From positions 1 to 41,699 of the IMG/VR virus record IMGVR_UViG_3300033150_002278: DNA of 41,699 nucleotides; one strand, written 5' to 3'. The notes below the pieces were generated by a model. It was given only the letters and a program-made list of their open reading frames with translations, searched no databases and was not told the DNA's origin. The position numbers and the translations under genes are program-made. Positions 2,815 to 37,714 of the stretch are shown here, one piece after another (the stretch's first letter is position 1; each line of letters starts with the position of its first letter). This DNA comes from a virus.

Positions 2815-3171
2815 ATGGAACGGGTGGAACGGTATGATTCTGCAGGACAGAACCTGTTGAACCGTGAGGTTGCAATAATCGGTATCGTTACAACTGCGAC
2901 CATATCAAACGTTATGACTATGAACCGTGGAAAGCATCCGGCCGGCTCGTGGATGGACGTAAGCCCGGCTGAACACATCAGAGCGGCCGCACGACACATT
3001 ATGCGTTGGATGAACGGGGTTCATGAGTCGGACGGGGAATACCACTTGGACAACGCGCTGTGCCGGCTGGCAATGGCAGCCACGGTCAACCTGATTGACC
3101 CGGTGCTCGCAACGTTGGTAAAAGACCAAATTGAAGGAGAATACGAGGATGAGTTTGATGACGGGACCTAA
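2815..3171 (+). CDS. DUF5664-like protein (dATP/dGTP diphosphohydrolase N-terminal-like)
   Basis: The 118-residue protein contains PAEHIRAAARHIMRWMNG followed by an acidic ESDGEYHLDNALCRLAMAA segment. This is the pattern of DUF5664 proteins: two helices with H/R and D/E residues that recall nucleotide hydrolase folds. The annotation dATP/dGTP diphosphohydrolase is used for relatives, mainly by homology; here the reaction is unproven. GGGAGG lies 6 bases upstream of the ATG. Its end overlaps the polymerase gene by 23 bases, placing it in the replication operon, where a nucleotide-pool role would fit. Confidence 0.6.
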   Translation: MERVERYDSAGQNLLNREVAIIGIVTTATISNVMTMNRGKHPAGSWMDVSPAEHIRAAARHIMRWMNGVHESDGEYHLDNALCRLAMAATVNLIDPVLATLVKDQIEGEYEDEFDDGT

Positions 3172-5419
3172 GTGCGAAGAGTGTACGTTGGACAGGGCAA
3201 AGTTCGTACCGCCACAGATACCGGATTACGCTCAGCATCCCATCCTCTTCGTGGGGCAGGCGCCCGGAAAGGTTGAGGTTACGACCGGTATTCCGTTCAC
3301 GGGACCGGCTGGCCGTATGTTATTTAGGCTGATGAGTGACGCCGGTCTGAATAAGAAGTATGCGAACATTACGAACGCTGTGATGTGTATGCCGCCCGGC
3401 GACAGGCGACCGACTCCTGAGGAGCTGGCATGCTGTCGTCCCATATTGGCCGACGTCATCCGGCGGGTTCGACCTAAGGTTATCGTTGCATTGGGGTTGC
3501 CCGCTCTTGAGGCGCTGACCATCCGGGGTTTCGCACAGCCAATGGAGCAGTTGCGCGGCACCGTCTTCAAGTTGAACGAGCTGTTCGGGCACGATTGCCC
3601 CGTTTTGGTTACGTATCACCCTGCATTCGTAATGCGGCAACGCCAATGGATTGAGATTGTCGTAAACGACTTACGCAAGGCCGTGGCAATAGCGCGTGGC
3701 GATTCGGTGTCCGTCGGCGATGAGTGGAATCCGAACATGATTCTAAATCCGTCACCGACATTTTTGGCCGACTGGCTGGGTCGGTCATTCGACGGAGCGA
3801 CCGTCGTCTTCGACATTGAAACTACCGGGCTGAACCCGTTTGAGGACAAGATTCTGGGAATTGCGTACTGTTACAGCGGTAGTGAGGCAGTTGCCATAAC
3901 CTTCGACCCGGACGTGAAGGACGAGCGGTTTGAAGTTGTTCGCCGGTTTCAGGAGGACCCGCATGTACGTAAATGTGCCCAGAACGCATCATTCGACGTG
4001 TCCTTCCTGGATATGGCCGGCATACGGACGGAAGGCATCGCCTGGGACACGCGCTGCGCTGAGACCGTGCTACATCCCGACCTGCCCAAAGACCTGCAAA
4101 GTATGCGGACTCTCTATACAACGATTCCTCCGTATAAGCCTACCAAACGCGAGATGGCTATGATTTCGTCGATGCCGGAACCGCGTGTCCTCGAAATGGC
4201 GTGCTGGGACGTGATTACAACGTGGGCCGTTATGGAAGAGCAGCGCCGAATGATGGGCGAAACTGAACTCAAACTGATGAATGACTTGCTCATACCACTC
4301 ATCGAACCGTTGTGGCGCATGCAAAAAGTCGGCGTCCGCGTTGACGTACCGCTCCTTGCAGTCATCTACAAACGTGAGTTGCCGAAGGTCGTCGAAATCG
4401 AACATGAATTCATGTCGGAGGTGGGCATAAATCCGGCATCACCGGCGCAGATATGCGAGCGCTTCGGGTTGAGGAACTCGACGGAGGAATTACTCAAAGC
4501 GGAGATTCGACGGTTGCATCCAGACGCGAAGTGGTTTGAAAAAATATTGACGTACCGCAAAAAGCGGTTTGTGTTGGACACCGTACTCCGTGGTGTGTAC
4601 GACAGACTGATTGGTGACCGAGTTCATACGTCCTTCCTTCTTGAGGGCACGGCAACCGGCAGGCTCGCGAGCAGAAATCCTAACCTGCAGAATATACCAC
4701 GCTGGCTGCGGCAGATTTTCATTCCGGACGACCCGGAGCGGTACTGGTTCTGTGAGGCCGACTTCAAACAACAAGAGCTGAGGGTTGGGGCGCTGCTCGC
4801 ACCGGAGCCGACGTTGCTCAATGAGCTTGAAACCGGTAAGAGCGTGTATAAAACGCTCCACCGTGAGATATTCGGTAGCCCGGAAGGGCGCGACCCATTT
4901 CAGGTCGAGCGTGAGATAACGCAGACGAAGGGCGTTGTGTTTGGAACGTTGTATGGCCGCACAGCGCGTTCCATTGCGATGGAATTCGGCGTTCCAGTTG
5001 CAGTTGCGGAGAGGTGGCAGGCAATCTGTATTAACCGATTTCCCGGCCTGCTCGAATATAAGCGCAGGTGTGAAAGGGATGCCTTAGGAAAGGGATATGT
5101 CCAAACCCCGTTCGGTCGTAAGCGGTATGTAACGACGCTGACGCAGGCGTATAATACACCCATTCAATCTACGTCTGCTGACGTGGGTTTAACGGCTTTG
5201 TTACGAGTGTACCGTGCCGGGTTCGACCTCAGGCTGACGGTATACGATTCGCTTTTGGTACAACTGCCGAAGGGCGACTTGGAGGCAGTGAGGGAGTTTA
5301 AGAAAACGTGCGAACAACCGATTGAACAGCTTGGCGGCTATGGATTCGCGGTCGACGTGAAGGTCGGCAAAAGTTGGGGCGAGCACGACCTGGAGAAGCT
5401 GGACTTGGACAATGGATGA
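3149..5419 (+). CDS. Uracil-DNA glycosylase / family A DNA polymerase fusion
   Basis: One 756-residue protein joins three modules. Residues 1-185 are a family-4 uracil-DNA glycosylase: Cys9 and Cys12, Cys80 (MCMPPGDRRPTPEE) and a Cys at 95-96 match the four Fe-S ligands, with GQAPG (36-40) and YHPAFVMR (156-163) as active-site motifs. Residues from about 215 form a 3'-5' exonuclease with FDIETTG (221-227), NASFD and WDVITTW. The polymerase follows, with GRLASRNPNLQNIPRW, motif A DFKQQELR (about 535), motif B KGVVFGTLYG (about 593) and motif C as VYDS (about 697) rather than VHDE. The start follows GAAGGAGA at 8 bases. It is the replicative polymerase with a built-in uracil-binding or repair module. 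The usual GEAPG acid is Gln here, so glycosylase activity is uncertain. Confidence 0.93.
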   Translation: MSLMTGPKCEECTLDRAKFVPPQIPDYAQHPILFVGQAPGKVEVTTGIPFTGPAGRMLFRLMSDAGLNKKYANITNAVMCMPPGDRRPTPEELACCRPILADVIRRVRPKVIVALGLPALEALTIRGFAQPMEQLRGTVFKLNELFGHDCPVLVTYHPAFVMRQRQWIEIVVNDLRKAVAIARGDSVSVGDEWNPNMILNPSPTFLADWLGRSFDGATVVFDIETTGLNPFEDKILGIAYCYSGSEAVAITFDPDVKDERFEVVRRFQEDPHVRKCAQNASFDVSFLDMAGIRTEGIAWDTRCAETVLHPDLPKDLQSMRTLYTTIPPYKPTKREMAMISSMPEPRVLEMACWDVITTWAVMEEQRRMMGETELKLMNDLLIPLIEPLWRMQKVGVRVDVPLLAVIYKRELPKVVEIEHEFMSEVGINPASPAQICERFGLRNSTEELLKAEIRRLHPDAKWFEKILTYRKKRFVLDTVLRGVYDRLIGDRVHTSFLLEGTATGRLASRNPNLQNIPRWLRQIFIPDDPERYWFCEADFKQQELRVGALLAPEPTLLNELETGKSVYKTLHREIFGSPEGRDPFQVEREITQTKGVVFGTLYGRTARSIAMEFGVPVAVAERWQAICINRFPGLLEYKRRCERDALGKGYVQTPFGRKRYVTTLTQAYNTPIQSTSADVGLTALLRVYRAGFDLRLTVYDSLLVQLPKGDLEAVREFKKTCEQPIEQLGGYGFAVDVKVGKSWGEHDLEKLDLDNG

Positions 5420-6629
5420 CAGGGACGCAATCCGGGAGTTTTTGCCCCAAACGGGCTGGCTCGCGGACTACATTCGGTTGACGGACGGAGTCGCAGCATG
5501 TCCGCGATTCCGATTTTTCAGCGCTGCCTGCGTGGTGGGCGCGGCTGTAAATAACAAAGTGTGGATAACGCGCGGGACGACGGGCTCGCTACTCCCGCCG
5601 CTGTTCCCGAACCCTTGGGTAATTCTTCTCGCACCGCCTGGCCGTGGGTACAAAACGTCCACGATAAACATGGCCGTGAACATTCTGAAGGCAGCATGCC
5701 CCGAGGCAAGGGTGCTGAGCGACCGAATTACGCCTGAAGCGATAACGCAGGCACTCAGCGAACCAAAGACTCCGAAGGAGATGATTCGTATCGGGCCGCG
5801 CGATGCCACCGGTCTCATCAAAGCACCTGAGCTCAGCGTGTTCTTCGGTAAGCAACAGTACAACGCATCGCTAATTTCATTGATAACCGACCTGTATGAT
5901 TATAGAGAAACGTGGCGTAGTGAGACCATTGCTCGTGGCAGGGACATCCTACGCAACGTGTGCATTTCAATCATCGGTGGCTCAACTCCGGCTTGGCTTC
6001 AGTCCATGTTGCCACACGATGCATTTACGGGCGGCTTCATGTCGAGGTTTATTCTCGTTGAGATGCCGCCCACATATTACAAGCGGGTAGCGTTCCCCGT
6101 TGAGCCCGACAAGAAGGAGTGGGGCGAACTGGTTAATCGGTTGTCAATGATTGGGCGAATACGCGGTGAGATGACGTGGGCTGATGAAGTAGCACGAAGG
6201 CGATACCGGGATATGTACGAATCGTACGTTCCGACCGGGGATGAACAGATTGATGCATACAGGGAGCGCGAAACCGAACAGATTCTGCGCATTGCGATGT
6301 TGATAGCGTTGACGAACGATAGGATGACTGTGTCGGTTGAGGACCTGAACACGGCAAACAACTTGATTCGACTACTTGAGCGGGAGACCTCGCCGAGAAT
6401 TGAGCGGTTGGGAACGCATCCGCGGATGGAGTTGGTACAGCGCATTTGCGACATTCTGAGAATGCACGGTGAACTGAGTGAGGCAGACCTGCTGCGGATG
6501 GTATATCGGTCCCTTACTTATGGCGAAGCTCAGTTTTACGAAGCCCTTGGGATACTACGCAAAACTGGGATGATAACCGTAAACGGGCGTCCAGGTGCAT
6601 GGCGCTTCAGTTTGAGGGAAAGGCGATGA
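5412..6629 (+). CDS. DUF3987-like replication ATPase/helicase-like protein
   Basis: The 405-residue protein has a P-loop-like APPGRGYKTST at about residues 74-84, with one residue more than a standard Walker A between PPG and KT. A long segment SIIGGSTPAWLQSMLPHDAF and GGFMSRFILVEMPP is typical of DUF3987 proteins, which replace or accompany helicase-primase genes in phages. The C-terminus (about 340-400) reads as a winged-helix (LRMHGELSEADLLRMVY). It overlaps the polymerase gene by 8 bases. A role as replicative helicase or loader is inferred from position; ATPase activity depends on whether the odd P-loop works. Confidence 0.7.
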   Translation: MDDRDAIREFLPQTGWLADYIRLTDGVAACPRFRFFSAACVVGAAVNNKVWITRGTTGSLLPPLFPNPWVILLAPPGRGYKTSTINMAVNILKAACPEARVLSDRITPEAITQALSEPKTPKEMIRIGPRDATGLIKAPELSVFFGKQQYNASLISLITDLYDYRETWRSETIARGRDILRNVCISIIGGSTPAWLQSMLPHDAFTGGFMSRFILVEMPPTYYKRVAFPVEPDKKEWGELVNRLSMIGRIRGEMTWADEVARRRYRDMYESYVPTGDEQIDAYRERETEQILRIAMLIALTNDRMTVSVEDLNTANNLIRLLERETSPRIERLGTHPRMELVQRICDILRMHGELSEADLLRMVYRSLTYGEAQFYEALGILRKTGMITVNGRPGAWRFSLRERR

Positions 6630-13436: not shown

Positions 13437-14222
13437 CTAAATCTTGATGCCAATACTGAATTCGCCCGAAGTGCTTCTGCCTTCGGTTGCGACAACGTAC
13501 GGGTTAAGTCCAAGTACGGCGAATGCGAGACGCATGAACGGGTTGTACTGCCATGGTATCACACCGCCAACCTGCTCGCCCATCAGCCAGCGCTGCAGCT
13601 GAGAGAACGTCCGTTCCTGCTCTATCGTCCGCTCGAGCTCGCCGGCCCCGGCAAGCTGGCCGTACCCGAGCTGCTCAGCACCGAGCCCCGCCCCGGCCGC
13701 ACGTTGTGCAAGGTCGGTGAGCGCTTTCCTGCGTGCCAACTCGTCGGAGTACGCCAACTCGGCCCGGCGCTGTGATAGAGTTAACGCCAACCGTTCGGCG
13801 GCATCCGCTTCGGCTTCCGCTCTGGCGGAACCGTAGAACCCCGGCCCAACAAACGATTCGCGCACCTGCGGAAGTGTCACATTTCTGAATTCGTACAAGG
13901 CTGGTGCACGAATACCGCGTTGGTAGAATTCCTCGGTCGCCTGAGGATTAACCTCGTACGCTGGCTGCGTCAACGAGCGGGTCAATGCTCGCGAGCGTGC
14001 CATTATATCGGGCAACATTCCCTGAACGTACCACAAGTACTGTTGCTCAGCTTCAGTCGTCGGTACGTACATACGGCCGGGATAAGCGGGCGCCGGTCCA
14101 CTCATTCCTCTCTGAATGAGTGGAACCAAACGACGGAACGTTGACCATTGTCCGGGCGCCCACACGTTCACCCTTGTTGGCCTGTATGACGACTTCGAAC
14201 TGCTTCCACCTATGGAAATCAT
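13437..14222 (-). CDS. Putative internal virion protein (261 aa)
   Basis: The 261-residue protein has an alanine/arginine/glutamate-rich helical centre (GSARAEAEADAAERLALTLS, about residues 127-146) and a hydrophobic C-terminal patch (NPFMRLAFAVLGLNPYVV). It holds the place of T7 gene 14, a membrane-associating ejection protein. The Gly/Ala segment RAAGAGLGAEQLGYGQLAGA could be flexible or membrane-active. ATGA overlaps join it to the gene before it. Function is inferred from position; the sequence itself is not family-diagnostic. Confidence 0.7.
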   Translation of the reverse strand: MISIGGSSSKSSYRPTRVNVWAPGQWSTFRRLVPLIQRGMSGPAPAYPGRMYVPTTEAEQQYLWYVQGMLPDIMARSRALTRSLTQPAYEVNPQATEEFYQRGIRAPALYEFRNVTLPQVRESFVGPGFYGSARAEAEADAAERLALTLSQRRAELAYSDELARRKALTDLAQRAAGAGLGAEQLGYGQLAGAGELERTIEQERTFSQLQRWLMGEQVGGVIPWQYNPFMRLAFAVLGLNPYVVATEGRSTSGEFSIGIKI

Positions 14223-14659
14223 TTCACGACCTCTATCACCGAAGTGTCAGCGAGCCGAATTCTGTCGCCAAGTTTGCGTATGAACACATGTGGTCTGTCT
14301 GTCATCCAAATGACGCGTTCGGCCCTGTAAGTCCTCGCAAGCTTTACTATTTCGTCTAACATCGCGTCCACAATCCAACCGCGCACACTGAATGTCTTGG
14401 GATGCGCGGATATACGCATTACGATTGTCAGGTGCTCGATAGGGCATGACAGCCCCCACGCAACGCATATGATTTCGCCGTCACCATTCAGTGCGACAAT
14501 GTTCCAGTAAGCGAACTTCATACGGTGCGCCAACCGTATGTATTCCGTCGAATCAATTCCGGCAATCTGCATAATAAAGCTGTGCGGTATCTGCTCGAAC
14601 GGAACATTCCACACGAATTCGATGTCTACCGGACTACGCGCTTGCGCCCTACCATCCAT
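14219..14659 (-). CDS. Putative internal virion protein A-like, GNAT-like fold
   Basis: The 146-residue protein has an alternating strand/helix pattern: NIVALNGDGEIICVAWGLS, then LTIVMRISAHPKTFSVRGWI and a helix DAMLDEIVKLARTY before RVIWMTD. This resembles a small acetyltransferase (GNAT) fold without a clear acetyl-CoA signature. T7-like phages carry a similar small protein (gene 13) at exactly this place, between the nozzle and the other internal proteins, where it seems structural or chaperone-like. ATG 14659 is preferred over GTG 14671. It overlaps the end of the nozzle-like gene by 34 bases. Confidence 0.6.
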   Translation of the reverse strand: MDGRAQARSPVDIEFVWNVPFEQIPHSFIMQIAGIDSTEYIRLAHRMKFAYWNIVALNGDGEIICVAWGLSCPIEHLTIVMRISAHPKTFSVRGWIVDAMLDEIVKLARTYRAERVIWMTDRPHVFIRKLGDRIRLADTSVIEVVK

Positions 14660-23468: not shown

Positions 23469-23636
23469 CTACTTCCCCCGTCTCACTTGAAAGGCAATGG
23501 CGACCGCCATCTTCCTGGCTTTAGCCAACGATTTGGGATGTGCTCTACCAATCGTACCTTTCCTCTTGTAACTCCTTATTAACTCTGCCACGTTTTTCTC
23601 GAAGGCCTCTTTGGTCCTCTCCTTAATTAAAGGCAT
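23469..23636 (-). CDS. Small basic protein with AHPKSLAKA motif (55 aa)
   Basis: A 55-residue ORF reads MPLIKERTKEAFEKNVAELI, then RSYKRKGTIGRAHPKSLAKA and RKMAVAIAFQVRRGK. Small phage proteins of this pattern (K-x2-AFExNV, then AVAIA near the C-terminus) are common beside structural genes and have no assigned function. It is below a 60-codon cutoff but fits exactly between the radical SAM gene (10-base overlap) and the next start (2-base gap). GGATG-type upstream bases give only a weak ribosome site, so coupling is likely. Confidence 0.75.
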   Translation of the reverse strand: MPLIKERTKEAFEKNVAELIRSYKRKGTIGRAHPKSLAKARKMAVAIAFQVRRGK

Positions 23637-24559
23637 CCGTACCTCTCCTTCAACCCCTCAAAGATTTGCCCCGGCTCTATCCGCCTCCCGACGTAAACCG
23701 GCGTGCAGAACTTCTGCTCGTTCAGAACAAGGTAAATACCATACCTCGCAGCAACTCGCTGGCGATACCCCATATCCTTGTAAGCCGCCATCTCTTGAGG
23801 TCTTTCCACCATCTTCAAGTCCGAAATGACGAACTTACCCCGCTTCAACTTCTTCGACCGCCAGTGCAATGCATCAAACATTCCTGGGGAAATGTCGTCC
23901 CTGCCATCAGTCGACCTCCTACGGGGCAGCGGTAGTGCACAACCACACTTCGGACACCACCGTTCAACCTGTTCGGTAAAATCCTTCGGCGTCCTAGCCC
24001 ACCAGTACGGCTCCACAGGCCACCCGCCCGGACCACCAAACAACAAATCCAGCGCTGCGGCAACCTCACAGAAGAATGCACCCTTCGGGTTGATGCTGGC
24101 CGACCAATTGTTCTGTAGCCAGCAGTGGTCAATCAAATAAAACATCTTACGCCTATCGGGCACAACCTCTTCCGCAGCGACCAGAACGGGACAGTGGTAA
24201 ACATCGTCCCTGGTGTGGTCATTGATAAAGATATGCCCGAAGGTATCGCAGATTAGCCTTGCATAGTGTTCATACCCTTTCGGAAGGGATGTCCACAATC
24301 CCAACCTTCCAGGCTCAATCTTCGAGGAAGCGTACTTGCAGATTTCCTCAAACTGGGGATGCAGCAGGGGCTCGCCACCCATAATCCCCGTCATCTTGGG
24401 GTACTCGACCATAGTGTCCAGCGCCCGCCTAAACTCGTCCAGGGACATAAAGTAAGGCTTCTCATGGTGCCCGCAGAACCTGGTGCAGTTGCTACACGAG
24501 TTCATACAAGCGTTGGTGACCTCAATCTGGATGGTGTCCATGTCCAACAGAGCTCGCAT
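23627..24559 (-). CDS. Radical SAM protein
   Basis: The 310-residue protein has the radical SAM Cx3Cx2C cluster at Cys18, Cys22 and Cys25 (NACMNSCSNC), which binds the 4Fe-4S cluster that splits S-adenosylmethionine, and the GGEP motif in GIMGGEPLLHP near 61-64. Extra cysteines (CEVAAAL and WCPKCGCALP) could hold a second, SPASM-like cluster. It begins 1 base after the glycosyltransferase stop (TAAATG), so the two are co-translated. The substrate is not known. A joint modification of a virion protein or surface glycan is one guess. Confidence 0.88.
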   Translation of the reverse strand: MRALLDMDTIQIEVTNACMNSCSNCTRFCGHHEKPYFMSLDEFRRALDTMVEYPKMTGIMGGEPLLHPQFEEICKYASSKIEPGRLGLWTSLPKGYEHYARLICDTFGHIFINDHTRDDVYHCPVLVAAEEVVPDRRKMFYLIDHCWLQNNWSASINPKGAFFCEVAAALDLLFGGPGGWPVEPYWWARTPKDFTEQVERWCPKCGCALPLPRRRSTDGRDDISPGMFDALHWRSKKLKRGKFVISDLKMVERPQEMAAYKDMGYRQRVAARYGIYLVLNEQKFCTPVYVGRRIEPGQIFEGLKERYGCL

Positions 24560-25243
24560 TTATAACCCCCATGCCTTCAGTACCTTCCTCATTTCGATAG
24601 CCTTCGCCTCCGGCGGAATGAGGTACTGGTGGTAAAAGTAACCCAAGGCCCACTCCATATTCAAATCCTTAAACAACTGCCTCAGCGAGATGAACTTCAG
24701 ACCGTACTTGGCAATATTCCTGGAGCAAGTGTAATCGTCAATCAGGTGCTCCGGCTCAATAACCCCCGAGTTCAGCTCCTGCACCGTGGGCCTTATCCTC
24801 TTGACCGCCTCCTCAAAAGTCAGGTCGTCCAACGGCTTCCACAACTCAATGCACCAGTCTGACCCAATGGTGAACCAGTTACCAGAGCCAATGTGCCTGC
24901 CATCCCTAAGGAAGAATCTATCATATTTCCACCGGATAGGTGCAAAGTCACAGCCGTGGTGCAAGACCGTGTCCTTCTTCAAGAGGAGGGTTACGTCAGG
25001 CAGGTCGGGGTGAATCAGAGCATCGGAGTCGATGTAAATGTTCCAGTCATTACTCATCACTTGGCCCAACTCATAAATTTGGAACTTCTCGTAGACAACG
25101 GGCCAGCCATAAAACTTTCGCTCCCTAATTACATAAAATTCCGCGCCAATCTTATCGGCGTAGGCCCTCAGGAGCGGATAAGTCAACTCGCAAACCTGCG
25201 GGGCAAAGTCGCCTATGTTAAGAGTGAAGATACACTTTTTCAT
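24560..25243 (-). CDS. GT-A type glycosyltransferase
   Basis: The 227-residue protein starts MKKCIFTLNIGDFAPQVCEL and has a Rossmann-like opening, YADKIGAEFYVIRERKFYGW, then KFQIYEL and the DxD motif in WNIYIDSDALIHPDLP, which binds a metal and a sugar nucleotide. This is the pattern of GMA12/GT34-like and related glycosyltransferases. It follows GGAGG at 5 bases and is directly coupled to the radical SAM gene. Sugar donor and acceptor cannot be told from sequence. Placement behind head genes suggests a capsid or host-surface target. Confidence 0.82.
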   Translation of the reverse strand: MKKCIFTLNIGDFAPQVCELTYPLLRAYADKIGAEFYVIRERKFYGWPVVYEKFQIYELGQVMSNDWNIYIDSDALIHPDLPDVTLLLKKDTVLHHGCDFAPIRWKYDRFFLRDGRHIGSGNWFTIGSDWCIELWKPLDDLTFEEAVKRIRPTVQELNSGVIEPEHLIDDYTCSRNIAKYGLKFISLRQLFKDLNMEWALGYFYHQYLIPPEAKAIEMRKVLKAWGL

Positions 25244-30645: not shown

Positions 30646-31197
30646 TCACTTTCCGCGTTTCTTTATCCGAATGACACCATGCTTTTCAAGTATTTCGGCG
30701 TAGGCTTTAGGCAAATACAACCGCTCCGACTCCACCCACACGTATTCCGGCAACTCCTCTCCACTCTTCAACGCTCGAAAATACTTCTCATGCATCTTGC
30801 GGAAGTGGGTTTTCATCAACTTGGTGTCCATGGGATGTTGCATCCGCTTGCGCCGCTCAAGGGACGTGAGCGCCCGTTTGAGTTTTGCCTCTTCGGGTAA
30901 CCCAGCAAATTCATCCACATACCGTTTTGCACCAATACCGCGGACCAGCTCGCGCAACACCTCCTTCCGCACGGGCAACTCATGACCGTCTTCGAAAAGG
31001 ATTGCACGCCACTGGGGACCGAGAACTACCACATCCTTCACAACGCGTCCTTCTATGGTACGCCCAACCAGCACGTCGGCCGTTCGCGAGCGCGGCCCGG
31101 ACGAAGCACCCCGCCTTATCGCACGCGCTAGGGCCCTGCCAACCGGAACCCAGTCCGCCGCATGCGCTTCACCTACGAACAGTTCGCTCAGATCCAT
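30646..31197 (-). CDS. Hypothetical protein upstream of portal (183 aa)
   Basis: The 183-residue protein starts MDLSELFVGEAHAADWVPVG. A strand-rich middle (IEGRVVKDVVVLGPQWRAIL) is followed by a very basic helical segment (KLKRALTSLERRKRMQHPMD) and ends KKRGK. The N-terminus contains AHAADWVP, which looks like a small helix but not a clear signal peptide. It overlaps the ATP-grasp gene by 10 bases, so it is in the terminase-portal block. No family is recognised. Confidence 0.65.
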   Translation of the reverse strand: MDLSELFVGEAHAADWVPVGRALARAIRRGASSGPRSRTADVLVGRTIEGRVVKDVVVLGPQWRAILFEDGHELPVRKEVLRELVRGIGAKRYVDEFAGLPEEAKLKRALTSLERRKRMQHPMDTKLMKTHFRKMHEKYFRALKSGEELPEYVWVESERLYLPKAYAEILEKHGVIRIKKRGK

Positions 31198-32441
31198 CCC
31201 CAGTGCCTCAGGCGCATGTACTTACTTTCAAAGTCCTGGCCGATGTCACTCCTGTACTGCACATCGTTGTGGATGACAATATTCTTCACCGTCCGGTACG
31301 CGCGACGTCTACACTCGCGGACGTCCCTGCCCCGTGCGGTAACACAACCAATTACACCGTCGACACCGGCAAGCACGGGCAGCCGCCCATCAAACATGAC
31401 GTCGGATAACCAAACGTGCGACATTGCGGGCTCAGGCACATCCAATACCTGTACACCCTCAAGCAGCCGCATGTCTGACTCCGCGGGCCAAGGGGCCATG
31501 CTCAGGCGCACGGCAATGGAGAAGCCGCTCCCCGCACGGAATTTATCTACGCCGATGGCGACCCCGTAGAGATAGTCGAACAGCGGGTGTAACAAAAGCT
31601 CGGCCCACGCCTGAATTGCATCGTACCCAAACCGGGCGGTAAATTCCAGGAAATACAGCTCATCCTTCGTTGCAATGCAATTGACGTCGATGGGCCCAAC
31701 GTATTCCACCTTGCGCAGTAACTCAGTAAGCGGGACCAACGCGCGCTCAACAATTTCATCGCGCTCGGCTACCCACACAACGTTCCCCATACACCCAGTG
31801 TTCGGTCCCTTGTCCCCTTCCATAAACCGCTTGTGCTCTATCGTATGGTTGAACGGCTCAATCCACTTTTCGCCGTCAAACCAGCCCTCAGTCGAGATTT
31901 CGACTCCGTCTTCAATGACTTCCTGAACGATACAGGGCGTCAATTCGACTCTGTGTACCATACTCAGTATCGTCCTGTTGTGCCGGTCGGCCGATACAAG
32001 TGTGAGACTGGGCGGCTTGTTACCAATGGGTTTCACCGCAAGGGGACGCCCCTTTCCCAATTCTGAAATTAACTCAGCCTTCGTCTTACAAGCCTTACTG
32101 GGCGGAATCTTCACCTTCGTCTGTGACTGCACCACTTTCAATGCATAGTTTCTGTCCAACTCAAGTTTGTCCGCAAACCGGCCGCCCCCCAACACTGTTT
32201 TCCCCTTCTCCTTAAGGGGATCAATGATTTCACCGCATCCTACCATATCGGCGACAACCAGGTCGTATTGGTCAAGGAGCCGCCGGTAATCCGTAATAAC
32301 AGTCGGGTTCTTCGAGCCCTGCAAACTGTTACGCGCCACCCGTTCTTTAATCCACATCTTGACGATGTGTCCTTCCCCGGCCAACCGCAGCGCAACCGGA
32401 ATTCCGTCACCACTCTTGCTTATGAATAGTACCGTCGCCAT
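31188..32441 (-). CDS. PurD-like ATP-grasp protein
   Basis: The 417-residue protein resembles phosphoribosylamine-glycine ligase (PurD): an N-terminal Rossmann-like part (MATVLFISKSGDGIPVALRL), ATP-grasp core with PLAVKPIGN, GVEISTEGWFDGEKW and GPNTGCMG (PurD-like), and FLEFTARFGYDAIQAW. In PurD the last block is NxRFGDPExQ; here Asn is Thr, GDP is GYD and E is A, so substrate or metal binding has probably changed. It sits between large terminase and portal, an unusual place for a purine gene. A modified-nucleotide, peptide or capsid ligase role is possible; a simple host purine-boosting role is also possible. Confidence 0.82.
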   Translation of the reverse strand: MATVLFISKSGDGIPVALRLAGEGHIVKMWIKERVARNSLQGSKNPTVITDYRRLLDQYDLVVADMVGCGEIIDPLKEKGKTVLGGGRFADKLELDRNYALKVVQSQTKVKIPPSKACKTKAELISELGKGRPLAVKPIGNKPPSLTLVSADRHNRTILSMVHRVELTPCIVQEVIEDGVEISTEGWFDGEKWIEPFNHTIEHKRFMEGDKGPNTGCMGNVVWVAERDEIVERALVPLTELLRKVEYVGPIDVNCIATKDELYFLEFTARFGYDAIQAWAELLLHPLFDYLYGVAIGVDKFRAGSGFSIAVRLSMAPWPAESDMRLLEGVQVLDVPEPAMSHVWLSDVMFDGRLPVLAGVDGVIGCVTARGRDVRECRRRAYRTVKNIVIHNDVQYRSDIGQDFESKYMRLRHWGWI

Positions 32442-32462: not shown

Positions 32463-34046
32463 TTAGTGCAACCACGGCCCGCTCCACGACCTTTCCCATT
32501 CCTCCCTACGGCCAGCCCGCTTGCCGATATTATCAAGGATTTCGTCGAGTGTGTAATACATGTAGTTGTCCGGCTTCGGGACGTCCTTCTCCGGGAGCGG
32601 CTGCGGCTCAAGATGCCTGCCGCGCAACGATTCGAATTTAATCAACCCGAGAATGGCAAGTCCCGTCGCTATCACAAGGTTGTCGGACCGACCCCGGAAT
32701 TTGCCTTCCTCAACCTCTTCATACGAAATAAGTTCTGACACGGTCATGGAATCGTAGAGGGTCACATTCCCAAGGTAATCCTGCATCGTATCGACGAGCA
32801 TATGTTTGGTCTGCTTCGAATTGAGCCAGCCGTACCGGGGCGCCGTCCGCATGGTTGCCGGCCTACTCTTATAAAGCCGATTGCGTGGATAATTAGTTTT
32901 GAGATATTCCACGACTGCGACACCGTGGTTGTTCGCTTCACAGACTACGAAGGCCTCATTATAATGCCTTGCAACGCGGCATACGAAATCTGCCAACGCA
33001 ATGGGCTGAATCGTGTTGTTCGCAAACCGGAAGACCTGCTCACCGGTTTCGCAACAGAAGATTACGACCGCGGCGTCATCGTTGCCGGTGCCGCCTGCTG
33101 GGTCGACGCCCACAACGTAGTTGAAGCCGGGGCGCGGGTGCCCCAAGAGGAATGAACAGAACTGGCCAAACAGCCGTTGTGAATCCATCCATTCGGACGA
33201 CTCCGCAAGCTCGACGTTCGTGAATAGGGCACCCCCCGATGCTTGGAAACAGTCCTCGGGCGAGGACGGATATTCCTGATTCATCAACTTCAGGTTCTCG
33301 CGCAACTCGCGGAACTTGTGCTCCCACCACGCCATTTGCTGGTTGCTCAAACGGAACCGCTCTTGCATTTCACGCATTACATGGTTGAATCCCGGCGTAT
33401 CAGGCTGCCACGACCCAACAGGTAGCGTGTACTCATCATCGGCGTACCACGGATAAAACAGGCGCGTATACCCCATCTTGTCGGCATTGAGCCAGATGAA
33501 GTAGAAGTCATTCGCTCGGCCGTTGCCCGTCGATTCAATTACAATACGCCCGGCGAGGGGTACAGCCTGGAAGACGCCCGCATGATGTAATTCGGCCTTT
33601 TCCCACCAAGCATACTCCGAACAATGGAGGTCCGTAATGGTATCGCCGCGGCCGAACGCTTTGGAACCGGCCGTGCCTATGTAAAACGATGATTCCGTCT
33701 TCTTAAAATACATTTCATTCCGCGAATGGCGTCCGAAGCTGGGGCGTGGCCCACGGATGTGGCGTAGGTAGAAATCAGCGCGGTCCAACAACCTTTGCGT
33801 CGCCTGCGCTTCATGACTCATTACAACAGCATGCGTACCGGGGATGCCCAAACACCGAGCTGCGAATTCGGCAAGAATGTACGAGGAAAACCCTTTTTGC
33901 CGCGCCTTTGCAATGATTGTCCGATTTGTCCGATTCCTGACGAAGAACCGTTGTGCATCGTTGAGAATGAAGGGAACCTGCCGCCCCGACTTCGTCTGGA
34001 TGGAGAACAGTGATTCTATTACAAGCGGTATGCGGTCCATGTTCAT
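32463..34046 (-). CDS. Terminase large subunit
   Basis: The 527-residue protein has a terminase ATPase: KARQKGFSSYILAEFAARC (P-loop-like, about 48-66) with an acidic pair in TDLHCSEYAWW (Walker B-like), and a C-terminal nuclease with VGVDPAGGTGNDDAAVVI, VCEANNHGVAVVEYL and SDNLVIATGLAIL. It cuts the DNA concatemer and drives packaging into the portal. ATG 34046 overlaps the small terminase stop as ATGA. The P-loop lacks a standard GxxxxGK[ST], as in many large terminases. Confidence 0.93.
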   Translation of the reverse strand: MNMDRIPLVIESLFSIQTKSGRQVPFILNDAQRFFVRNRTNRTIIAKARQKGFSSYILAEFAARCLGIPGTHAVVMSHEAQATQRLLDRADFYLRHIRGPRPSFGRHSRNEMYFKKTESSFYIGTAGSKAFGRGDTITDLHCSEYAWWEKAELHHAGVFQAVPLAGRIVIESTGNGRANDFYFIWLNADKMGYTRLFYPWYADDEYTLPVGSWQPDTPGFNHVMREMQERFRLSNQQMAWWEHKFRELRENLKLMNQEYPSSPEDCFQASGGALFTNVELAESSEWMDSQRLFGQFCSFLLGHPRPGFNYVVGVDPAGGTGNDDAAVVIFCCETGEQVFRFANNTIQPIALADFVCRVARHYNEAFVVCEANNHGVAVVEYLKTNYPRNRLYKSRPATMRTAPRYGWLNSKQTKHMLVDTMQDYLGNVTLYDSMTVSELISYEEVEEGKFRGRSDNLVIATGLAILGLIKFESLRGRHLEPQPLPEKDVPKPDNYMYYTLDEILDNIGKRAGRREEWERSWSGPWLH

Positions 34047-34564
34047 CGCTCGTCCGTCGGGTTGAAGTTAGGGTTGGAATTGAAGTTGGGATTAGGGTTG
34101 GAGTTAAAGTTGGGGTTAAAGTTGGGGGTTGCGCTCATCCCCTGACTCTGACCTTGACCCTGATTAAGTATTTGGAGCACAACGTCTTCGGCAGTGATAT
34201 TTATCTGCTGCTGGCCGGTGTCGCGATACTTTCCGTGTGACCGCAGCCACTTGTCGGCTGCGTCGAGGCGCATGCGCATATCGGGATGTGTGAGCCCGTC
34301 GCGGATGGTTTCTATGACGAGTGGATACAGTGAGGCGAACTGAGTGTCCAGTCCGGCGAGCAGTGTTTGGCGGAGTTTAATGGAAAGGTCGCTTGCCAGA
34401 ATGCGGGACACCGACGCTGGTTGGTATCCCGTGAGTTCGGCTATCTCCTGGTTGGTGTACCCCGAAAGGGCCAATTGAATGACATACACCCACCGATGCG
34501 TACGTTTATCGGTGTACCGCCCGGTTTTGAGTATGGGCTGATCCGTGTTTGATAAGTAGTGCAT
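34043..34564 (-). CDS. Terminase small subunit-like protein with Asn/Pro-rich tail
   Basis: The 173-residue protein has an HTH in YTNQEIAELTGYQPASVSRI (about residues 36-55), a central helical region (DTQFASLYPLVIETIRDGLT), and a Gln/Gly then Asn/Pro/Phe low-complexity tail (NPNFNSNPNPNFNSNPNF), which matches the 34058-34131 repeat. It lies just before the large terminase with an ATGA overlap, the usual order, and probably recognises the packaging site. The start is ATG 34564; a GTG at 34567 is the alternative. Confidence 0.78.
   Translation of the reverse strand: MHYLSNTDQPILKTGRYTDKRTHRWVYVIQLALSGYTNQEIAELTGYQPASVSRILASDLSIKLRQTLLAGLDTQFASLYPLVIETIRDGLTHPDMRMRLDAADKWLRSHGKYRDTGQQQINITAEDVVLQILNQGQGQSQGMSATPNFNPNFNSNPNPNFNSNPNFNPTDER
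34058..34131 (-). repeat. Low-complexity repeat in terminase small gene (G-quadruplex-prone)
   Basis: The end of the small terminase gene is a short tandem repeat coding Asn-Pro/Phe/Ser units (AAC-TTT-AAC-CCC type). The plus strand is G/T-rich with many GGG and GGGG runs a few bases apart, a telomere-like pattern able to form a G-quadruplex. It sits at the terminase junction, close to where a packaging signal might lie. Confidence 0.75.
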
Positions 34565-34782: not shown

Positions 34783-34801
34783 ACAAACCCCTGAAATTAC
34801 T
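34783..34801 (+). repeat. 19-bp promoter box, distal copy of promoter 1
   Basis: The sequence ends in TGAAATTACT, the conserved core of the box, and starts 28 bases before the proximal copy (34811). The first half is degenerate (ACAAACCCC). The same 28-base distance separates distal and proximal boxes at promoters 2 and 3. Confidence 0.6.
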
Positions 34802-34810
34802 AACTTTTCG

Positions 34811-34829
34811 ATAACTATTCGAAATCACT
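34811..34829 (+). repeat. 19-bp promoter box, proximal copy of promoter 1
   Basis: ATAACTATTCGAAATCACT; begins exactly 33 bases before the -35 of promoter 1 and ends 14 bases before it, the same as at promoters 2 and 3. Confidence 0.75.
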
Positions 34830-34843
34830 CATAAAATTCATAC

Positions 34844-34871
34844 TTGATTTTCAAAACTGTCGTGCTATAAT
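34844..34871 (+). promoter_or_regulatory. Rightward promoter 1 (TTGATT-16-TATAAT)
   Basis: TTGATT (34844-34849), a 16-base spacer and TATAAT (34866-34871) make a host-type promoter with a perfect -10. The spacer (TTCAAAACTGTCGTGC) is almost the same as that of promoter 3 (TTCAAATTTGTTGTGC). It starts the small-gene operon beginning at 34905. The two upstream boxes suggest a phage- or host-encoded activator or repressor. Confidence 0.85.
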
Positions 34872-34904: not shown

Positions 34905-35066
34905 ATGAAAAACAAACCGAACGAACTCAAGGGACTTACAGACGAGCAAATCTACGAATTGGCCCGACTGGGTCTGCGCGTGCGCGAACAACGGCGCAAA
35001 GCGAACCGTAAGCGCGCGGCGCTCCTGAAAGCCGCAAAAGCGGCCAATCTCAAAATCGACGAGTAA
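34905..35066 (+). CDS. Small basic protein (53 aa)
   Basis: A 53-residue ORF starts MKNKPNELKGLTDEQIYELA, has GAGAGGGG 8 bases before the ATG, and ends in a strongly basic helix RRKANRKRAALLKAAKAANL. This helix resembles the C-terminal part of the proteins at 36328-36564 and 41226-41525 (RRxAxxxR-LLxKAxEAG), so the three form a small paralogous family. The helix could bind DNA or RNA. It is the first gene behind promoter 1 and therefore probably early. Confidence 0.7.
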   Translation: MKNKPNELKGLTDEQIYELARLGLRVREQRRKANRKRAALLKAAKAANLKIDE

Positions 35067-35369: not shown

Positions 35370-35383
35370 CCCACACACGCACA

Positions 35384-35422
35384 GGGCTCAGCCCACGAAC
35401 CCCCAAACCGTGGGCTGAGTCC
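35384..35422 (+). terminator. Probable terminator of first early operon
   Basis: GGGCTCAGCCCACG (35384-35397) pairs with CGTGGGCTGAGTCC (35409-35422) over 14 positions including one G-U pair, with an 11-base loop, 14 bases after the stop of the 35112 gene. No T-run follows, so it is a candidate terminator or 3'-end protector rather than a textbook one. Confidence 0.5.
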
Positions 35423-35530
35423 AACCACACCGTCCACTCAACCATCGCCCATCATCTACCCAACCGATTACACGCACACACGCATTCGCGCAGCCACGCA
35501 TTCACACCGATGCGATGTACGTACAACAAA

Positions 35531-35567
35531 CATATGCGCGCACGCGTGCATGCATACGCGCACACAC
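35531..35567. repeat. 37-bp strict pyrimidine-purine alternation (Z-DNA-prone)
   Basis: From CATATGCGCGCACGCG onwards every base alternates pyrimidine and purine for 37 bases (35531-35567), mostly CG and CA/TG steps. Such tracts switch to left-handed Z-DNA under negative supercoiling and can mark origins or control regions. It directly precedes the AGTACTTA repeats. Confidence 0.85.
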
Positions 35568-35577
35568 CGAAAATTTT

Positions 35578-35592
35578 AAGTACTTAAGTACT
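35578..35592. repeat. AGTACTTA repeat cluster 1
   Basis: AAGTACTTAAGTACT holds nearly two AGTACTTA units; bases 35579-35592 form a perfect 14-bp palindrome (AGTACTTAAGTACT). Confidence 0.85.
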
Positions 35593-35603
35593 ATAAATTT
35601 GAC

Positions 35604-35622
35604 ATTTTTGTGACACAAAAAT
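35604..35622. promoter_or_regulatory. 19-bp perfect palindrome (operator-like)
   Basis: ATTTTTGTG-A-CACAAAAAT has two perfect 9-base arms around one central base. A TTGACA (35599-35604) runs into its left arm, so the palindrome would cover the spacer of a possible weak promoter. A dimeric repressor or initiator site is a fair reading. Confidence 0.6.
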
Positions 35623-35624
35623 CG

Positions 35625-35643
35625 ATAAATATTTGAAATCACT
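35625..35643 (+). repeat. 19-bp promoter box, free copy
   Basis: ATAAATATTTGAAATCACT is the best match to the box consensus but has no recognisable promoter 33 bases downstream; repeat cluster 2 begins there instead. Confidence 0.7.
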
Positions 35644-35657
35644 AAATTTTTAAATCT

Positions 35658-35679
35658 AGTACTTAAGTACTTAAGTACT
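35658..35679. repeat. AGTACTTA repeat cluster 2
   Basis: Two full and one partial (AGTACT) tandem AGTACTTA units, 22 bases, forming two overlapping palindromes. Confidence 0.9.
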
Positions 35680-35701
35680 ATATGGGGTCTTATATTTATT
35701 T

Positions 35702-35752
35702 TTGCTCGCAGCTCTTTGCTGGTTGTGCGTTTGCTCGTTGCGCTCTTGCTGG
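35702..35752 (+). repeat. Four TTGCTSG heptamers at 14-15 bp spacing
   Basis: TTGCTCG (35702), TTGCTGG (35716), TTGCTCG (35731) and TTGCTGG (35746) alternate C and G at the sixth position. The spacing of 14, 15 and 15 bases is regular. Short, evenly spaced repeats beside AT-rich DNA recall iterons. Confidence 0.65.
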
Positions 35753-35839
35753 CGCGTTGGTATGTTTAAAAAATTAATATCTCTTATTCACACACTTCCT
35801 TTACAAATTCCCCAAGAATCAAAAAGAAAGACATGAGTT

Positions 35840-35863
35840 AGTACTTAAGTACTTAAGTACTTA
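35840..35863. repeat. AGTACTTA repeat cluster 3
   Basis: Three exact tandem AGTACTTA units (24 bases), preceded by an A-rich stretch. The largest of the three clusters. Confidence 0.9.
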
Positions 35864-35950
35864 ATTCACCCAACGCGGGGCGCTCACCACCTCACCGGGC
35901 GGTGCCACTACCACTATCGGCGTCCACCCACCGAGCGTCCACTCTCCTCC

Positions 35951-35969
35951 ATAAATATCTAATTTTACT
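35951..35969 (+). repeat. 19-bp promoter box, distal copy of promoter 2
   Basis: ATAAATATCTAATTTTACT keeps the first half but a degenerate core; starts 28 bases before the proximal copy. Confidence 0.55.
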
Positions 35970-35978
35970 GGCTTTTTT

Positions 35979-35997
35979 ATAAATATCTGAAATCATT
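35979..35997 (+). repeat. 19-bp promoter box, proximal copy of promoter 2
   Basis: ATAAATATCTGAAATCATT, beginning exactly 33 bases before the -35 of promoter 2. Confidence 0.75.
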
Positions 35998-36011
35998 AAA
36001 AAATTTTACCC

Positions 36012-36039
36012 TTGATTTTTGTCGTGGATATGCTAAAAT
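36012..36039 (+). promoter_or_regulatory. Rightward promoter 2 (TTGATT-16-TAAAAT)
   Basis: TTGATT (36012-36017), 16 bases, TAAAAT (36034-36039); the spacer ends GTGGATATGC. Followed by an AAAACAGAGAGGG leader also seen behind promoter 1 (AAAACAGAGAGGG). It drives the genes from 36064 on. Confidence 0.8.
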
Positions 36040-36063
36040 AAAATAAAAACAGAGAGGGAAACC

Positions 36064-36276
36064 GTGAAACAGACATCACAACGGGAAATGGTCTGTCCGC
36101 GATGTGGTAAAAGACATCGAACGCTCAAAGCGGCTCAGCAATGTCTCAGCGGCAGGATCCACGACTATAACTACGCAGCCATCGCCGGTTGGCGCAACCG
36201 CCACCCACAGGCATTCGCCGAACGTAGAAAAGCATTCGAAGAAGCGAAGAAGTACCTGGACTCCCTCAAGCAGTAA
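36064..36276 (+). CDS. Small zinc-finger-like protein (70 aa)
   Basis: The 70-residue protein starts with GTG at 36064 (MKQTSQREMVCPRCGKRHRT) after GAGAGGG. CPRCGKRHRTLKAAQQC carries a CxxC, a His and a further Cys, giving a likely zinc site. A helical basic and acidic C-terminus (RRKAFEEAKKYLDSLKQ) follows. It is the first gene behind promoter 2. A DNA- or RNA-binding early regulator is possible; no family is recognised. Confidence 0.7.
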   Translation: MKQTSQREMVCPRCGKRHRTLKAAQQCLSGRIHDYNYAAIAGWRNRHPQAFAERRKAFEEAKKYLDSLKQ

Positions 36277-36327: not shown

Positions 36328-36564
36328 ATGGCAAAGGAAACCAAAAACACCATCAACCTCACTTTCGGCAACTCAAGCTTCGAGGTGCCCGACAATTACG
36401 GAATCAACCACCTTACCGCCGACCAAGTTGCGGCAGCGGCATCCCGGTACATGAATATCCTCAGACAACGCCGGTTCGCTGCCAAAAAACGTCAACTCCT
36501 CATCCGCAAAGCGGTCGAAGCCGGACTCGACCGCGAATTGCGGTACGAAGACCTAACGCCGTAA
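36328..36564 (+). CDS. Small basic-helix protein (78 aa), paralogue
   Basis: The 78-residue protein starts MAKETKNTINLTFGNSSFEV after AAAGGAGG. Its second half has RRFAAKKRQLLIRKAVEAGL, the same basic helix as in the proteins at 34905-35066 and 41226-41525. A strand-rich N-terminus distinguishes it. Basic, helical early protein; DNA or RNA binding is a guess. Followed by a 13-bp hairpin. Confidence 0.72.
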   Translation: MAKETKNTINLTFGNSSFEVPDNYGINHLTADQVAAAASRYMNILRQRRFAAKKRQLLIRKAVEAGLDRELRYEDLTP

Positions 36565-37625: not shown

Positions 37626-37644
37626 ATAAATATTTGAAATTACT
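37626..37644 (+). repeat. 19-bp promoter box, distal copy of promoter 3
   Basis: ATAAATATTTGAAATTACT, 28 bases before the proximal copy. Confidence 0.75.
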
Positions 37645-37653
37645 TAATTTTTT

Positions 37654-37672
37654 ATAACTTATTGAAATTATT
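37654..37672 (+). repeat. 19-bp promoter box, proximal copy of promoter 3
   Basis: ATAACTTATTGAAATTATT, beginning exactly 33 bases before the -35 of promoter 3. Confidence 0.75.
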
Positions 37673-37686
37673 AAAAAATTTTTCAC

Positions 37687-37714
37687 TTGATTTTCAAATT
37701 TGTTGTGCTATAAT
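37687..37714 (+). promoter_or_regulatory. Rightward promoter 3 (TTGATT-16-TATAAT)
   Basis: TTGATT (37687-37692), 16 bases, TATAAT (37709-37714), almost identical to promoter 1. It drives the genes from 37743, probably through the HIT, ligase and replication genes. Confidence 0.85.

Follow-up and report, generated by a model that had tools for sequence, protein, structure and literature searches.

The helicases Rep of SaPI and Cch2 of SCCmec use a C-terminal domain to bind short iterons located in non-coding DNA; another SCCmec helicase, Cch, is MCM-like (PMC7581432). The corresponding origins, those of SaPI (Rep) and SCCmec (Cch, Cch2), are non-coding, carry short direct and inverted repeats and adjoin the helicase gene (PMC7581432). 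The origin of the PLE satellite, whose genome is phage-related, is a gene-free region with several repeat types, one of them palindromic; it is bound by the initiator RepA_N and has direct genetic and binding evidence (PMC7145576).

Here, we describe a gene-free gap of 694 bp (positions 35370-36063), a genuine and conserved feature of a group of uncultured phages, which had not been assigned before and whose function we infer. The best single reading of it, to which we give about an even chance, is the replication origin of the phage. Like the SaPI and SCCmec origins, the gap is non-coding and contains short direct and inverted repeats; as in those elements, the helicase is MCM-like or D5-like and has a DNA-binding domain at its C-terminus (predicted in the phage), and the locus is a single-copy element inside a mobile genome (PMC7581432). 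Unlike in those elements, the helicase gene is not adjacent, lying ~11 kb from the gap on the circular map, and the long dyad and the non-B tracts of the gap fall outside the SaPI/SCC description. With the PLE origin the gap shares the absence of genes, the several repeat types including a palindromic one, and the phage-related genome (PMC7145576), whereas family searches found no RepA_N gene here.

The window, i.e. the whole stretch of DNA analysed, is a virus record from IMG/VR; it is 41,699 bp long and its ends share a 114-bp repeat, so that its map is circular (~41.6 kb). A minus-strand block from 34.6 to 6.9 kb holds terS, terL, portal and other structural genes, while a plus-strand block, which starts at 34.9 kb and continues across the end of the record as far as 6.6 kb, encodes a ligase, a Sak4-like protein, a PD-(D/E)XK exonuclease, a UDG-PolA fusion and a primase/helicase. 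The gap stands at the head of this plus-strand early block and is the longest stretch without genes in the window genome. Around it lie the following features:

34043-34564, minus strand: terS, small terminase subunit (HTH), the presumed binder if the gap were a packaging site
34783-34871, plus strand: promoter module P1 (motif search), with GAAAT boxes at 34783 and 34811 (28 bp apart), TTGATT at 34844-34849 and extended -10 TATAAT at 34866-34871
34905-35066, plus strand: small ORF of 53 aa; relatives have a comparable small basic protein in this position (by phmmer in G006 only, elsewhere by eye)
35384-35422, unstranded: hairpin GGGCTCAGCCCACG / CGTGGGCTGAGTCC, ending the P1 unit (inverted-repeat listing; relatives by eye)
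35951-36039, plus strand: promoter module P2 (motif search), with GAAAT boxes at 35951 and 35979, TTGATT at 36012-36017 and extended -10 TAAAAT at 36034-36039
37626-37714, plus strand: promoter module P3, third exact copy of the pattern (motif search)

The first-pass annotation had stated that no gene fits the gap, and this holds: no ORF between 35369 and 36064 passes the codon-usage gene model, and 35370-36063 gave no tblastx matches to relatives. A DNA similarity search against phage records returned no matches. The strong hairpin at 35384-35422, which that annotation did not mention, has terminator-like counterparts at the same place in relatives, with a T-run in most (by eye). The gap is thus bracketed, with the hairpin/terminator on one side and the early promoter P2 on the other.

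Small basic proteins with a similar end motif, at 34905-35066 and 36328-36564, look like paralogues on both sides of the gap, and paralogue-like small basic proteins with a similar end motif also flank it in L021 (11773 and 10948, G003 coordinates). A terminator-like RNA of conserved shape follows the small ORF in L010 (2800-2866), L013 (940-1010) and L021 (7460-7510 and 8300-8360); it has a G-rich stem, an AAGUGA-type internal loop, a CAGGA apical loop and, by eye, compensating stem changes, and its loop resembles a CsrA site, with no Rfam match. An uncalled gene may lie in a second long gap of the window (14073-14625, 553 bp), which separates minus-strand genes.

The gap itself is made up as follows:

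35476-35622, plus strand: left arm of a long imperfect inverted repeat (self reverse-complement alignment)
35530-35567, unstranded: alternating purine-pyrimidine tract of 38 bp (Z-DNA type), within the left arm (run-length scan against shuffles)
35576-35593, unstranded: AGTACTTA cluster 1 (repeat and inverted-repeat listings)
35604-35622, unstranded: 19-bp palindrome ATTTTTGTGACACAAAAAT, centre of the inverted repeat (palindrome scan)
35625-35643, plus strand: single GAAAT box ATAAATATTTGAAATCACT with no promoter of its own; together with cluster 2, homologous to L039
35629-35765, plus strand: right arm of the long imperfect inverted repeat (self reverse-complement alignment)
35657-35680, unstranded: AGTACTTA cluster 2, a 24-bp perfect palindrome (inverted-repeat and palindrome scan)
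35701-35753, plus strand: TTGCTSG tract with a period of 14-15, pairing with the alternating tract (motif count, self reverse-complement alignment)
35840-35864, unstranded: AGTACTTA cluster 3, alternative partner of cluster 2 (inverted-repeat listing)

Several of these elements had been named in the first-pass annotation. Its pure pyrimidine-purine alternation is borne out by the 38-bp run, the longest in 100 genome shuffles being 21 bp; its three clusters are located as above, and its four regularly spaced TTGCTSG heptamers stand at 35702, 35716, 35731 and 35746 (spacing 14, 15 and 15), being four of the 11 forward copies in the genome. AT-rich DNA is indeed present, with 60-mers as low as 17% G+C, though the most AT-rich 50-mers of the genome are found at 37.6 kb, inside a promoter and not in the gap. 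The longest perfect palindromes of the genome (24, 22, 20 and 19 bp) all fall within 35370-36063; the 19-bp palindrome singled out earlier is there, but taken alone it is within chance because shuffled genomes reach 15-22 bp. As for the perfect promoter box, the hexamer TTGACA does occur at 35599, yet it has no good -10 at 16-18 bp and was therefore ruled out as a promoter and regarded as an isolated hexamer; where the region does have a convincing promoter is at 36012-36039. A AGTACTTA 22-mer also turned up in other collections, namely in an unrelated viral contig (L007) and at the end of a bacterial MAG contig (L138), and these occurrences were judged coincidental.

What had gone unnoticed is that the elements pair with each other, and the gap is therefore one imperfect inverted repeat instead of a set of independent features. 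The left arm, with the alternating tract and cluster 1, pairs with the right arm, with cluster 2 and the TTGCTSG tract, the 19-bp palindrome being central; the inverted-repeat score is 62, against 30.2 +/- 4.5 and a maximum of 45 in 60 shuffles. An alternative pairing joins clusters 2 and 3 (arms 35653-35691 and 35828-35866, 82%). The gap ranks first of 207 genome intervals by inverted-repeat score and is the most extreme of 276 by fold z-score. The longest non-B tract of its kind in the genome falls in the gap in the window (38-bp alternating), in G001 (42-bp pyrimidine) and in G003 (38-bp pyrimidine).

A fold of this strength, with energy z-scores of -4 to -9 in most relatives, might betray a transcribed long-hairpin RNA with a regulatory or anti-defence role. 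The excess is, however, much alike on both strands, strand-wise z-scores differing without consistency, and there is thus no sign of selection on one RNA strand; moreover, an Rfam search of the window and eight relatives gave no matches, and the hairpin/terminator before the gap and the promoter after it argue against transcription. Mismatches (51 A-C versus 23 G-U) were left aside as an RNA test because the strand is C-rich, which confounds the asymmetry. An RNA is accordingly the reading we hold to be very improbable.

The relatives are viral contigs collected by terminase alignment (TerL identity 49-58%). Their layout, as read by eye in contigs with enough flank and not complete in every contig, consists of terS and terL in one direction and, divergently, a family promoter, a small ORF (missing in G002), a terminator-like hairpin, a gene-free stretch, a second family promoter and the early genes. 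The syntenic gap, 0.66-1.07 kb in size among relatives, is the longest gene-free gap in all five of the complete or near-complete genomes: 694 bp in the window, 696 in G001, 1066 in G002, 664 in G003 and 948 in G006. In eight of ten cases its inverted repeat outranks all others of the genome or contig, namely across the whole genome for the window, G001, G002 and G003, and across the partial contig for G007, L010, L011 and L013; at the gap of G006 and L009 no significant long inverted repeat was found, and L008, whose contig stops near the gap start, is excluded from the count. In the TerL relatives below 40% identity (L043-L053), the gene order upstream of terS is different in those looked at, and the feature therefore seems confined to the closer group.

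The contents of the gap differ among phages, with CT tracts, TA repeats and other iterons: (CT)n tracts occur in L011, L017, L021 and G012, long alternating tracts in the window, L010 and L055, and L055 has an array of 39-bp repeats. Clear sequence homology to the window gap is confined to L039 (GAAAT box and AGTACT repeats, score 49 against a shuffle maximum of 31), while L011 and L021 give weaker matches to the promoter box or AT-rich repeats. The search for the same repeat set in related genomes, suggested by the first-pass annotation as a check, hence has a divided outcome: the exact set is absent from nearly all of them and partly present in L039, whereas position and dyad architecture are kept. 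The arms thus match within each phage while the letters change between phages; the gap is conserved in place and in dyad architecture, not in sequence. Large sequence turnover and CT and TA microsatellites are also what might be seen in neutral low-complexity DNA, i.e. an insertion-tolerant place where simple repeats and palindromes grow by slippage. Against this, a compact phage keeps 0.66-1.07 kb gene-free at one place in every genome, with a significant long dyad in eight of ten cases, and slippage yields direct repeats, not long arms of mixed sequence that pair; we regard neutrality as decidedly unlikely, although less so than an RNA.

The promoters at both ends of this layout deserve separate treatment. 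The pattern GAAATYAYT-N14-TTGATTTT-N12-GCTAWAAT, absent from the first-pass annotation, has three copies in the window (34821, 35989 and 37664) and none in 100 shuffles; as it was derived from these same three copies, the shuffle test speaks for a real repeated module and not for an independent prediction. In each of P1, P2 and P3 a second GAAAT box lies 28 bp upstream, sometimes degenerate, and similar modules occur in L010, L011, L013, L017, L021 and L039. The modules are a family trait, which accounts for the right edge of the gap (P2) but not for the inverted repeat; P2 probably drives the early genes starting at 36064. One may then take the whole gap as an early regulatory array, its repeats being operators for a phage regulator of P1, P2 and P3 and the dyad a by-product. 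The family promoter modules around the gap, their GAAAT boxes at activator or operator distance, and the single GAAAT box inside the inverted repeat of both the window and L039 agree with such an array. But P1 and P3 have neither AGTACTTA nor a dyad region nearby, so the module does not need the dyad, and 500-700 bp of dyad before one of three equal promoters would be excessive. We consider this reading unlikely, if less so than neutral DNA. What survives of the master switch once proposed for the gap is at most the P2 module (35951-36039), which shares its design with two other modules and is not peculiar to the gap.

The first-pass annotation had also remarked that no initiator gene was assigned, and for this a plausible candidate can now be put forward:

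5412-6629, plus strand: candidate initiator, a primase/helicase of the DUF3987 family predicted to adopt an MCM-like AAA+ fold and to end in a winged helix (C-terminal, residues 337-405; model and PDB fold search)

Few replication proteins of the group are as well conserved as this one (54-65% identity). Its model, built with twelve homologues, is of medium confidence (pLDDT 74.6, pTM 0.73, low at residues 118-150); a first one from five sequences was too weak (pLDDT 49) and had winged-helix regulators among its matches. The model has 67 PDB matches at E <= 1e-3, of which the best 50 are all MCM subunits (top E 6.8e-7), with TM-scores to the query that are modest, 0.35-0.50 among the matches listed. 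The predicted winged helix comprises H337-352, H357-367, H372-385, E388-391 and E398-401 at a pLDDT of about 80-90. The helicase is predicted to combine an MCM-like AAA+ fold with a winged helix at its C-terminus, its likeness to MCM being a resemblance of predicted fold.

Replication origin is the best single reading because a conserved, insulated, non-coding and repeat-rich locus heads the early operon of a phage that encodes a helicase of self-loading type. Much of what an iteron origin served by a self-loading Rep (MCM-like/D5-like) calls for is found here, namely several short direct repeats (the palindromic, iteron-like AGTACTTA clusters) beside AT-rich DNA in a non-coding gap and, by prediction, an encoded MCM-like helicase with a C-terminal winged helix. 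The architecture of the gap, kept by relatives in other letters, suggests, without proving, a replication start served by the phage's own MCM-like helicase. Transcription from P1 and P2 would lead to the production of replication proteins; the helicase, or a partner, may then bind repeated sites on either side of the dyad, whose centre the alternating and AT-rich tract might help to open by absorbing negative supercoiling; two hexamers would load, and the UDG-PolA polymerase could begin bidirectional synthesis.

Several observations temper the origin proposed earlier, for which the conserved place, the dyad and the candidate initiator speak. One is the GC-skew profile suggested as a check: GC3/AT3 skew corrected for gene direction places the origin at the gap in none of five genomes, and at a different place in each, and raw cumulative skew fits the gap only in G002 and roughly in G003; skew may not record replication in such phages. 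Also weighing against an origin are the ~11 kb between gap and helicase gene, the want of a significant long inverted repeat in G006 and L009, and the modest MCM TM-scores of a model of medium confidence. A further point is that the exact repeats are not kept. A conserved winged helix sits badly with fully changing repeats if binding were simply iteron-specific, and therefore either another protein reads the repeats, or their shape is read, or the gap has another purpose, such as packaging. In the second case a conserved MCM-like initiator would recognise the form of the DNA, a dyad or cruciform beside a Z- or H-DNA-prone tract, and not its sequence, leaving the letters of the origin free to turn over between phages while position and architecture are kept; we think such a shape-addressed origin improbable, a place below the regulatory array and above neutral DNA.

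Packaging is the third case. In phage P1, pac is ~160 bp long and lies inside pacA, with two short-repeat clusters flanking a centre, and the pac sites of known phages mostly lie within terS or directly against it. By analogy, the small terminase, whose gene is 0.8-1.5 kb off, could bind motifs on either side of the dyad and start headful packaging. The gap is always near terS in relatives, and its short-repeat clusters flanking a centre recall the P1 site; TerS is far more variable (30-43% identity) than the helicase, as the partner of a changing site could be, which keeps this reading alive; the assemblies of the window and G002 have repeated ends, as circularly permuted DNA could give, and the G012 record ends within the CT tract of the gap. 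Yet the gap, unlike the usual pac sites, is outside terS, from which promoter, small gene and terminator separate it (where present in relatives), and a dyad of 0.7-1 kb with AT-rich DNA is larger than P1 pac and exceeds what pac needs. A packaging site is unlikely, though it comes before every other alternative to an origin. A protelomerase telomere of the N15 type and a prophage attachment site were ruled out, as PF16684 and the tyrosine integrase PF00589, respectively, are absent from six records.

To our knowledge, an origin has been recognised in few lytic phages whose hosts are uncultured. If the gap is an origin, the pairing of an MCM-like helicase with a dyad that is long and evolves fast would link phage replication to the self-loading helicases of SaPI and SCCmec and to archaeal and eukaryotic MCM. 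The comparative signature, i.e. the longest gene-free gap coinciding with the strongest inverted repeat, syntenic despite turnover, could be used on other metagenomic phages, in particular those whose origins escape sequence similarity or skew.

Some further observations concern the relatives and the remainder of the genome. The G012 record (43,982 bp) ends within the CT tract of its gap and its other end starts at P2-like sequence (L132, which is G012:1-4000, and L133), as though the assembly had been interrupted by the hairpin or the genome ended there. In L042 and L055 the TerL match begins only at residue 140/143, after >1 kb of other coding-like sequence, which resembles an intein or insertion placed identically in the two. 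By N-terminal sequence, G003 and G006 (L111-L113) have genes resembling QueC, QueE and FolE (e.g. G006:37465-38106, 41403-41993 and 41977-42468), with a QueD-like gene in addition in G006; such preQ0 pathway genes, none of which was recognised in the window, suggest deazaguanine-modified DNA. A GARS/PurD-like ATP-grasp protein (31188-32441), an odd partner for packaging genes, is found near TerL and portal in all relatives checked, and in the structural block a radical SAM protein (23627-24559) and its neighbour of unknown family (24560-25243) are strongly conserved in all four relatives compared (E 1e-93 to 1e-145). At 3149-5419, a uracil-DNA-glycosylase domain is fused before a family A DNA polymerase, an arrangement that the group conserves (41-43% identity in three relatives).
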